The position numbers and the translations under genes are program-made. The notes under the pieces were generated by a model, which had not been told where the DNA came from, did no database searches, and saw nothing but the letters and a program-made list of their open reading frames with translations. 43,118 nt of DNA from Oscillospiraceae bacterium (GTDB lineage Bacteria > Bacillota > Clostridia > Oscillospirales > Acutalibacteraceae): NCBI GenBank assembly GCA_015065845.1, contig SVPQ01000021.1, positions 1-43,118 of the forward strand. Direction: 5' to 3'. Below, piece after piece: positions 23,653 to 26,325 of this stretch; the stretch's first letter is position 1, and each line of letters opens with the position of its first letter.

Positions 23653-23714
23653 TTTACAAATTCCCTTTTATATAGTATAATACATTGGTTAGAGTGGGAA
23701 TGTATCGTCACTCT
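23653..23714 (+). promoter_or_regulatory. promoter and leader hairpin of the cysteine desulfurase gene
   Basis: TTTACA (23653-23658), 17 bp, TATAAT (23676-23681). The leader contains AGAGTG (23691-23696) pairing with CACTCT (23709-23714), just before the SD GGAGGTG (23720-23726). No known riboswitch is recognised. Confidence 0.75.
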
Positions 23715-23734: not shown

Positions 23735-24862
23735 TTGGCTTATTTTGATAACAGTGCTACTACAAAGCCAACCGAAAATGTAGTTAAAGCAGTCAAATTT
23801 GCCCTTACTGAATGCTGGGGTAATCCATCTTCACTTCATTCACTGGGCACAGAAGCAAACAACGCACTTATTAAAGCTAAAAAGCAAGTATCTTCTCTTT
23901 TAGGTTGTCAGAGCGAAAATTTCTTTTTTACTTCTTCAGGCACTGCCGCAAACAATACTGCAATTTTCGGTGCTTACGAAAAACAAAAAAGACTCGGCAA
24001 CAGAATTGTAACTACATCCATTGAACACCCGAGTGTACTGGAACCTGTAAAAAGGCTCGAACAAAATGGTGTTGAAGTTATAAGAATCAATCCCGACAAA
24101 ACAGGTAAAATCAACGAAGATGAATTTTTCTCTGCAATAAACGACAAAACAATTCTCGTTTCTTGTATGCACATAAATAATGAGGTAGGCTCTGTAATGC
24201 CTGTTGCTTCAATAAAATCGGCAGTAAAAAGAGCGAAATCACCCGCACTTATTCACACAGACTGCGTTCAGGCTTTCGGTAAAATTCCACTTTCACCGAA
24301 TTCTCTCGGTGCAGATATTATTACAGTTAGCGCCCATAAAATTCATGGTCCTAAAGGCGTTGGCGGAATTTATTTAAAGGCTAAAAATATTATTAAACCA
24401 TATATGCTCGGTGGTGAGCAGGAAAGTAATATTTTTGCAGGTACTCAAAGTATGCCTGCTATTCTCGGTTTTGGTAAAGCGGCAGAAGACGCAAAGAACA
24501 TTACTGAGAATACAGAAAAAGTCGGAAACTTAAAAAATTATTTATTAGAAAATATCAAAGATTTAAAATCAGTTACAATAAATTCACCCGAAGACGCTAT
24601 ACCCTATATTTTAAATATTTCAATTCTCGGACTCCCCAGTCAACCTATTGTTAATTTTATGAGTGAAAGAAACATTCAGATTTCAGCAGGTTCTGCTTGT
24701 AAAATGGGGCACAGAAGTCCGGTTCTCACTGCAATGGGACTTGACAGTAAAATTATAGATTCTGCAGTTAGAATCAGTTTTTCAAGATATAACACAGAAG
24801 ATGAAGTTAATCTTCTCATAGACGCAATTAAAGAAATAAACCAGAAATATGGAAAAGGATAG
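23735..24862 (+). CDS. iscS: cysteine desulfurase (IscS/NifS family)
   Basis: A 375-aa PLP enzyme that takes sulfur from cysteine as a persulfide for thiolation and Fe-S assembly. Family marks: MAYFDNSATTKP start, the HTDCVQAFGK segment, the PLP lysine in VSAHKIHGPKG (K202) and the sulfur-carrying cysteine in SAGSACKMGH (C322). The start is TTG with an ideal SD 8 bp upstream; no ATG fits. The adjacent thiI indicates a dedicated sulfur donor for tRNA 4-thiouridine, as in the NifZ-ThiI pair of Bacillus. The final TAG stop is formed at the junction with the MITE; without the insertion it would read TAA. Confidence 0.93.
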   Translation: MAYFDNSATTKPTENVVKAVKFALTECWGNPSSLHSLGTEANNALIKAKKQVSSLLGCQSENFFFTSSGTAANNTAIFGAYEKQKRLGNRIVTTSIEHPSVLEPVKRLEQNGVEVIRINPDKTGKINEDEFFSAINDKTILVSCMHINNEVGSVMPVASIKSAVKRAKSPALIHTDCVQAFGKIPLSPNSLGADIITVSAHKIHGPKGVGGIYLKAKNIIKPYMLGGEQESNIFAGTQSMPAILGFGKAAEDAKNITENTEKVGNLKNYLLENIKDLKSVTINSPEDAIPYILNISILGLPSQPIVNFMSERNIQISAGSACKMGHRSPVLTAMGLDSKIIDSAVRISFSRYNTEDEVNLLIDAIKEINQKYGKG

Positions 24863-25135
24863 GGTGAAATGAGTTATCCGAACTTGCCTAAAAGCGAGTC
24901 TTTTTAAGTCTTTTCGGCGTTTCGGTCTTGCAAGGCGAAAGCCTACCTTCACCCTCAACACCAAAAATCCAATAAAAACCCTTCGCTTTTAGGTCGAAGA
25001 TTTTTTACAGAACGGATTTTTGGTCATTCAAGGCAAAAACGGAGCAAATCCTTTGCGGATTTGCGAGTATTATAACGAGGAAGGAGCGAAAATCCGTCTG
25101 TAAAAAACACAGTTCGGATAATTCAATTCACCCTA
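24862..25135. mobile_element. 272-bp MITE with TA target duplication
   Basis: The element 24862-25133 starts GGGTGAA and ends TTCACCC, and its 23-bp terminal inverted repeats (24862-24884 and 25111-25133) match at 21 positions. TA flanks both ends (24860-24861, 25134-25135), as for Tc1/mariner-IS630-type insertions. Inside, 25001-25020 pairs with 25089-25107 (one bulge) around a perfect GCAAATCC/GGATTTGC hairpin at 25044-25064. There is no coding sequence. It sits between the desulfurase stop and the thiI ATG. Confidence 0.82.
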
Positions 25136-25137
25136 AT

Positions 25138-26325
25138 ATGAAAGAAATTATTCTCATTAAAGATGGCGAATTAGCATTAAAAGGACTTAACCGTTCTACA
25201 TTTGAAGATGTTTTAGTTAAAAACATCCGTTGGCGTATTAAGAAATATGGTAACTTCCAGTTTAAAAAGGCACAATCCACAATTACCATTACACCAATTG
25301 ATGATAATATAGATTTTGAAGCAGTTTGCTACGAAATTTCTCATGTTTTCGGTATTGCAGGATTTTCGCGTGCGGCAGTTACCGAAAAAGATATTGATAA
25401 AATACTTGACTTAGCACCTGTTTATTTAAAAGAACAGTTAAATGAAGTTTCTACATTTAAAGTTGAAGCAAAAAGAGCGGATAAAAAATTCCCTCTTACT
25501 TCACCACAGATTTCTGCAATGGTCGGTGAAAGAATTTTAGAAACATTCCCACACCTTTCTGTTGATGTTCATAACCCTGAAATTACAGTTACAGTTGAAA
25601 TCCGTGAAGATGCTTACATAAGAGGTAACCAGACAAAAGGTGCAGGCGGTATGCCTGTTGGTACATCCGGAAAAGGTATGCTTCTTATTTCGGGTGGTAT
25701 TGACAGTCCTGTTGCAGGGTATATGATGGCGAAACGCGGAATTGACCTTTCTGCAATTCACTTCGCCTCCCCTCCTTACACATCAGAAAGAGCAGAACAA
25801 AAAGTTCACGAACTTCTCTCAAAAGTTGCTCTTTATAGTGGCAGAATTGCTCTTTACACAGTTCCTTTTACACACATTCAGGAAGAAATCAAAGAAAAAT
25901 GTCCTGAAGATTGTTTTACACTTATTATGCGCAGATTTATGATGCGTATTGCTAATATGTTGGCAGAAAAATGTGACTGTCACGCACTTATTACCGGTGA
26001 AAGCGTTGCACAGGTTGCAAGTCAGACAATGCTTGCTTTAGGCTGTACAGATACAGTTTCTTCACTTCCTGTATTCCGTCCTGTTATTGGTATGGATAAA
26101 GAAGAAATAATTAAAATTTCAAGACAGATAAACACTTTTGAAATTTCTATTCAACCTTACGAAGATTGTTGCACAGTATTCACACCGAAACATCCTAAAA
26201 CAAAACCGATTTTAGCGGATATAGAAAAAGCCGAAGAACCTTTGGATGTTGATGCACTTTGTGAAGAAGCATTTAACGGTATCAAAAAAATCTTTATAAA
26301 TTCAGACGGTGTTCAGAATGGTTGA
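25138..26325 (+). CDS. thiI: tRNA 4-thiouridine sulfurtransferase
   Basis: A 395-aa enzyme that adenylates and thiolates U8 of tRNA. Order of domains: N-terminal ferredoxin-like region (about 1-60), THUMP domain (about 60-165), then the PP-loop ATPase with GGIDSPVAGY near residue 184. The C-terminal block PYEDCCTVFTPKHPKTKP carries the conserved cysteine. As in most Firmicutes there is no rhodanese domain, so the neighbouring desulfurase would deliver sulfur. The ATG has no SD in the preceding 20 bases because the MITE ends 2 bp upstream; the likely original SD (AAAAGGA) is on the other side of the element. The 3' end overlaps pncC by 8 bp. Confidence 0.93.
   Translation: MKEIILIKDGELALKGLNRSTFEDVLVKNIRWRIKKYGNFQFKKAQSTITITPIDDNIDFEAVCYEISHVFGIAGFSRAAVTEKDIDKILDLAPVYLKEQLNEVSTFKVEAKRADKKFPLTSPQISAMVGERILETFPHLSVDVHNPEITVTVEIREDAYIRGNQTKGAGGMPVGTSGKGMLLISGGIDSPVAGYMMAKRGIDLSAIHFASPPYTSERAEQKVHELLSKVALYSGRIALYTVPFTHIQEEIKEKCPEDCFTLIMRRFMMRIANMLAEKCDCHALITGESVAQVASQTMLALGCTDTVSSLPVFRPVIGMDKEEIIKISRQINTFEISIQPYEDCCTVFTPKHPKTKPILADIEKAEEPLDVDALCEEAFNGIKKIFINSDGVQNG

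Follow-up and report, generated by a model that had tools for sequence, protein, structure and literature searches.

A small MITE subfamily located between SD and start codon, and predicted bridging of the split site at thiI in an Oscillospiraceae bacterium

We identified a new, small MITE subfamily of which every copy found sits in the gap between the SD and the AUG of a gene, in the same orientation. The copy through which this pattern was noticed lies in the window (the whole 43,118-nt stretch analysed, contig SVPQ01000021.1 of assembly GCA_015065845.1, an Oscillospiraceae bacterium, here G000), where it separates the SD of thiI from its AUG. We tentatively propose, with a confidence a little short of even, that the insertion is tolerated by SD bridging, in which the closed stem of the element would bring the SD to the AUG; on our models this would be the best single account of thiI translation.

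Small bacterial mobile elements alter promoters and mRNA stability. If bridging is true, an element that splits an SD from its start yet permits translation would widen what genomes tolerate, and would provide a natural, repeated example of split ribosome-binding sites as well as a test of how long a structured gap the 30S subunit spans. The three loci concerned form a testable system, since close species carry filled, empty or scarred alleles, and specialisation of the subfamily for SD-AUG sites would be the most interesting possibility. No earlier description of a MITE between an SD and a start codon appeared among the matches listed in a search of open-access titles and abstract openings, in which subscription journals are mostly absent and which is weak evidence of absence.

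The desulfurase-thiI junction and its insertion

The element occupies the junction between the cysteine desulfurase gene and thiI (gene order cysteine desulfurase, thiI, CinA-family gene), with TA flanking both of its ends (Table 1). With the element present the desulfurase stop is TAG, the G of which is the first base of the element, and in silico removal of 24862-25135 yielded GGAAAAGGATAATATG. The preliminary description had taken this excision to restore the stop TAA, a 1-nt gap and the ATG; the resulting sequence is as described, but the gap between TAA and ATG is two bases in G011 (GGAAAAGGATAACTATG) and G015 (GGAAAAGGATAATTATG) and one in G000, so that the excision product equals the uninserted site of these relatives minus one base. 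The two relatives otherwise provided the clean empty junctions that had been looked for, with a single TA against TA/TA at the filled site, and together with the multicopy nature of the family they confirmed that a MITE lies between SD and AUG and that the 272 bp are not ancestral unique sequence. Besides the target duplication, the element has terminal repeats of 23 bp and no internal ORF of at least 80 aa.

Using a repeat search, we delimited arms of 25 nt including the TA (24860-24884 and 25111-25135) that are 92% complementary, one of their two mismatches being a G-U pair in RNA. The 5' terminal repeat and its TA together carry stop codons in three frames (TAG, TGA, TGA). The small ORF that begins in this repeat could be opened by melting of the stem, in which case the element might act as a switch. 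A consensus search retrieved no promoter-like site on the + strand within the element; the terminator-like site at 24882-24908, which competes with the predicted element fold, could lower thiI transcription, to judge by its motif.

Among the 37 genes of the window, thiI was the sole one without an SD match in the gene scan, in agreement with the earlier statement that no SD is left near its AUG, and 35 of the 37 had a match of at least 4 nt, a figure that is generous because the scan chose starts partly by SD. The start codon at 25138 was upheld by the orthologues of the genus, which have ATG (21/22) or GTG (1/22) at the same place.

Table 1. Features at the desulfurase-thiI junction, in positions of the window
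Feature	Position	Strand	Basis
Promoter-like site TTTACA-17-TATAAT, ahead of the desulfurase gene	23653..23681	+	Consensus match only
Cysteine desulfurase (class V aminotransferase) gene; stop TAG at 24860-24862	23735..24862	+	ORF, domains
SD AAAAGGA of thiI; within the desulfurase frame, abutting the stem foot	24853..24859	+	Sequence, relatives, fold
Left TA, target duplication	24860..24861	strandless	Sequence, empty sites
MITE copy, 272 bp; orientation relative to the downstream gene common to all five subfamily copies	24862..25133	+	
5' terminal inverted repeat, 5' arm of the closing stem	24862..24884	+	
12-codon ORF MSYPNLPKSESF; ATG 9 nt past the SD; would be buried in the stem when closed	24869..24907	+	Sequence only
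Terminator-like site in the element: 6-pair stem at 24882-24899, then U-rich CTTTTTAAGT	24882..24908	+	Consensus match only
First inner arm of the predicted fold	24886..24994	+	Folding, covariation
Second inner arm of the predicted fold	25001..25107	+	Folding, covariation
Inner SD-like AGGAAGGAG; 51 nt ahead of the AUG, with no start codon to serve	25078..25086	+	
3' terminal inverted repeat, 3' arm of the closing stem; bears the subfamily mark AATTCAATTCACCC	25111..25133	+	
Right TA, target duplication	25134..25135	strandless	Sequence, empty sites
thiI (ThiI; THUMP and ThiI ferredoxin-like domains); ATG 2 nt past the right TA	25138..26325	+	

The thiI gene was present in all 22 genus genomes and the element at its junction in G000 and G018 only, the more distant genomes having other short junctions without it. 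Directly before thiI, G021:C300 and G001:C65 (L012, L015) lack the element and carry a 10-bp near-duplication (GGATAATTAT or GGATAATCAA, then GGATAATTAT), which is a scar or an unrelated slip. The G018 copy has two extra A at its 5' end, leaving the desulfurase stop as TAA (TAG in G000). The two elements are 98% identical, with 5 substitutions in about 275 sites in addition to this 2-base length change; two of the five make up one compensated pair of the closing stem (T-A versus C-G at 24884/25111), and two others break inner-arm pairs in G018. For thiI itself we obtained a dS of 0.45 and a dN/dS of 0.03 between G000 and G018, inside the range of element-free pairs.

We rejected recombination of the element with its flanks between these genomes, as the flanks compared are 91% identical and differ to within about a dozen bases of the element (itself 98% identical), with no common tract visible. 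Two readings are left: recent thiI insertions that hit one TA repeatedly, or strong conservation or homogenisation of the element. A two-gene tree placed G021, which is empty at thiI, with G000 (support 83/86) and G018 outside, so that a single thiI insertion requires a loss in G021; the tree is compatible both with vertical inheritance and with repeated insertion. At an insertion outside the subfamily (L041/L070, in G011:C8 and G018:C9), 96 nt of element are identical, as are the 31 nt adjoining it, beside a flank that is 78% identical over 196 nt; the rest of that element in G018 was deleted between two TTCACCCT motifs. Since element identity can exceed flank identity, as in the thiI copies and L041/L070, it cannot be concluded that the purifying selection seen on thiI acted after the element had inserted.

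Position of the subfamily relative to start codons

The 3' repeat TTCGGATAATTCAATTCACCCTA was found exactly at four places in the 22 genomes, namely at thiI in G000 and G018, at a nitroreductase gene in G011 and at an aminoacyl-tRNA editing domain gene in G001, and a fifth copy, at the nitroreductase gene of G018, has lost 5 nt of the 3' repeat. In a tree of 26 copies, which left out the truncated G011 copy, the four longest subfamily copies formed one clade (support 100/99). In all five copies, at three loci in four species, 2-3 nt separate the right end from the ATG of a downstream gene that is intact; the old SD lies on the far side, and the stop codon of the upstream gene stands at the 5' end (TAG, TAA, TAG, TAG and GGG TGA). 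The frames of the five downstream genes are all open. The automated count caught four of the five right ends; the fifth, masked by its deletion, was read from the sequence.

For comparison, none of the 68 ends of 43 other family copies has such a position relative to an intact gene, under a rule that required the frame to be open to the end of the fetched flank. When this rule was relaxed, four of the 68 ends had an ATG at most 5 nt away, opening only 1, 2, 13 or 21 codons; a few GTG and TTG codons also occur within 5 nt, and although the TTG at L055 begins a long frame, an SD-bearing ATG follows downstream of it. As a chance baseline, 16 of the 617 non-coding TAs in the window end 0-3 nt before a start, which makes three loci of three unlikely by chance, whatever the cause. 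The pattern calls for caution, as it was noticed via the thiI copy itself and three loci are few.

Many other family copies lie upstream of an intact SD, sometimes adjoining it as TA-AGGAG. L053, L054, L059, L071, L081, L083 and L085 end at or within a few bases of the SD, often in this form, with 11-15 nt to the start codon. It is improbable, in our estimate, that the subfamily owes its place at stop/start junctions to targeting or selection unconnected with bridging, such as the target preference of a missing transposase: two species share a filled TA at thiI and two others of the set at nitroreductase, where a further species shows a scar, and the frequent position of other copies directly upstream of an SD points the same way, but copies with nearly the same ends lie outside the gap (0/68 ends) and no such transposase was found in the genus genomes.

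Deletion alleles were seen at the nitroreductase gene in two species. In G021 (L096, G021:C140, upstream of 7371, - strand), all that stands directly before the nitroreductase ATG is TAGGGTGAA, which corresponds to the element's bare 5' end and by its sequence would be a deletion scar with ordinary SD-start spacing regained. In G011 (L075, G011:C34:4396-4866, reverse strand), the subfamily copy is a 77-bp remnant of the element with its stem foot unclosed (P 0.01); a GTG lies 6 nt past the old SD, in frame with the gene, and may give nitroreductase a 25-codon N-terminal extension from transposon sequence. Both deletions look like escapes from a costly intact insert, which weighs against efficient bridging. 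At the editing-domain locus, G011 reads TTAGGGTAATG, which we would guess to be a TA-GGG-TA footprint.

The nitroreductase deletions in two species relieve the split, as they would if an insertion such as that at thiI merely lowered expression and were tolerated because thiI is dispensable there, the hairpin having no translational role. The presence of the element at thiI in just 2 of the 22 genus genomes, its terminator-like site and the high identity of the two thiI copies relative to the dS of the gene, which may mean an insertion too recent for decay, fit such a loss of expression as well. We nevertheless regard it as unlikely, because the downstream genes have open frames in five of five cases at three loci and because every subfamily copy found, not a subset, is in the gap. 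A broader and doubtful extension of bridging would be a transposon lineage living in ribosome-binding sites, which would enter the SD-AUG gap at gene junctions, supply the upstream stop and allow the downstream start across its hairpin; if true, mobile DNA would have become functional within the initiation sites of several genes in more than one species.

Predicted fold and routes to thiI translation

The predicted fold consists of a closing stem of 24 pairs and two inner arms, with a z of -9.1 and none of 200 shuffles as stable. We assessed covariation in an alignment of 32 copies that extends to distant ones whose ends differ, in which 93.5% of pair cells were standard and 42 of the 97 pairs had changes on both sides; the 3' end of L034 is misaligned in this alignment. 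Family covariation, inner arms included, reached 0.190 versus 0.089 for shuffled and at most 0.071 for slid versions, a comparison in which the reference structure, derived from one aligned sequence, is favoured over the slid ones. Since transposition by itself already accounts for complementary ends, the stem does not prove a role in translation; the covarying inner arms are less easily explained in this way, and the frequent G-U at several pairs hints at selection on RNA.

The earlier proposal that the terminal repeats can pair in the mRNA is supported by their complementarity and by the predictions in context, in which the foot of the closing stem is closed in the four full-length copies. 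For the outer closing pairs, P is 0.87-1.00 in the copies at G000 thiI and in G001, one A-A mismatch excepted; in the G018 thiI copy the two extra A shift the foot one pair inward (P 0.92), and in the nitroreductase copy of G018 a 5-nt bulge sits above the closed foot. The SD is predicted to be mostly free in three full-length copies, whereas in G018 thiI it is partly paired; the AUG bases are predicted to be about 0.4-0.75 unpaired in the four (0.4-0.5 in G000). Freeing the SD and the AUG side while the stem stays closed was predicted to cost 5.5, 4.9, 2.1 and 2.1 kcal/mol in the four full-length copies, and 5.0-8.3 kcal/mol with two outer pairs opened, whereas clearing a linear footprint around the AUG would cost 26.0, 27.7, 19.5 and 26.1 kcal/mol, against 3.4 kcal/mol for the same footprint at the empty G011 and G015 sites; these energies cover secondary structure only, the ribosome being excluded. 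In G000 the effective SD-AUG spacing, from stem to AUG, is 2 nt with the outer pairs shut and 6 nt with two opened. Bridging is in these predictions the cheapest route to thiI translation.

Two other starting points were considered and rejected. In frame with thiI, 54 codons are open upstream within the element, but they include no ATG, GTG, TTG or CTG, only ATT, ATA and ATC. The inner SD-like site lies 51 nt away from the AUG and has no start of its own; it is present in four of the five subfamily copies, as AGAAAGGAG in the G018 thiI copy, and is absent from the other aligned copies. As for linear reinitiation, about 20 nt between stop and start nearly abolishes coupling according to the available text of PMC10666635, which makes it unlikely over about 270 nt.

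In the bridging that we propose, a MITE of the subfamily has entered the TA that lies in the SD-AUG gap of thiI, downstream of the desulfurase gene, and desulfurase and thiI would share one mRNA, in which the terminal repeats would pair and make the element a branched hairpin between SD and AUG. A 30S subunit, arriving freely or staying at the stop codon from the ribosome that ended the desulfurase, could bind the SD at one flank of the stem foot and the AUG at the opposite flank, and the hairpin would keep downstream translation possible, probably with less efficiency. The folding, the energy comparison and the same position of five subfamily copies at three loci support this model, and to that extent the earlier suggestion that folding rebuilds the initiation site is partly supported; the model is weakened by the two species that left the arrangement by deletion at nitroreductase. 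The 2-nt spacing and the low predicted exposure of the AUG in G000, the two inner-arm pairs broken in G018 and the terminator-like site also count against it, and a ribosome terminating at TAG would presumably open the lower stem itself.

A short-leader or near-leaderless thiI mRNA might arise by a cut in the long stem (RNase III type) or from a promoter in or near the element. The 24 pairs of the closing stem would suit a cut, and in the case of Neisseria NEMIS, RNase III has been proposed to act on stem-loops that the MITEs form when co-transcribed (PMC2229807, available text). The + strand of the element is without a promoter-like site, which speaks against the promoter version, and a processed leader would presumably leave the restriction of one subfamily to the gap unexplained; we consider either origin quite unlikely.

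The closest precedent for bridging is found in T4 genes 25 and 38, in which SD and AUG are far apart and RNA structure between them shortens the distance (Nivinskas 1999; Malys and Nivinskas 2009, as summarised in the available text of PMC3014915), from 22 to 5 nt for gene 38 and from 27 to 11 nt for gene 25. Gene 25 likewise lies at an intercistronic junction, and its effect is supported by reporters and probing (PMC3014915, same text). These T4 sites involve a structure of the phage's own over 22 or 27 nt and no transposon (PMC3014915), whereas here an inserted mobile element would span a gap of about 280 nt in full-length copies, at three loci and by prediction only. Correia/NEMIS, ERIC, RUP and BOX are likewise short dispersed repeats, co-transcribed with their neighbours and with effects on mRNA, and BOX gives upstream genes stop codons (PMC2229807, PMC3049150); for these elements, mRNA cleavage or destabilisation, promoters and ORF fusions have been reported, and a systematic SD-AUG position is unmentioned in the available text of the two articles. 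The byp elements of yeast mitochondria and the gap of T4 gene 60 are also inserts tolerated since ribosomes pass over them, but that bypass occurs during elongation within a frame (PMC5009743, available text), whereas the crossing proposed here would take place at initiation between two genes.

Distribution and relatives of the element

A DNA search with the element gave matches in 19 of the 40 searched genomes, including 16 of the 22 within the genus. We sampled 59 stretches in addition to the window, which cover 62 of the 82 matched places after contig-edge fragments and weak matches were left out, and added one end-pattern place. The source genome G000, whose assembly is 82% complete, yielded one family match only; an end-pattern search in it gave one further end-like place with 2 mismatches, places with 3 mismatches being no more frequent than the control rate. 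A family-wide pattern scan of 100 genomes returned 3 places, all in G000 and G018, one of which (G018:C5:104383) is a non-subfamily copy where an ATG 3 nt past the TA opens only 2 codons. The exact subfamily pattern occurred in three records only of the GTDB contigs; IMG/VR gave no exact match to the 3' repeat pattern, and plasmids and phages no match to the element.

TA target duplication is linked with the IS630/Tc1-mariner family. A domain search for the DDE_3 transposase (PF13358) gave 0 of the 22 genus genomes, and hence no partner transposase for such an assignment, while DDE_Tnp_1 (PF01609) was present in 2 of the 22 (presence only). We did not file the element under IS630/Tc1-mariner-derived MITEs: the TA duplication fits, and a partner transposase with the same ends was not found. 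A known structured RNA family was also rejected, as the whole window had no Rfam 15 match at gathering score; one weak miRNA match on the opposite strand reached 20.5 bits versus a 90-bit threshold.

Related elements with different ends (TAGAGTGG...) and a similar core were found at L081-L085 and L087 (G002, G020, G017 and G006), and from these sequences the ends and core of family elements seem to evolve separately. L056 and L066 each have another small palindromic repeat, ACATCCTATCATTT...AAATGATAGGAT, next to the MITE.
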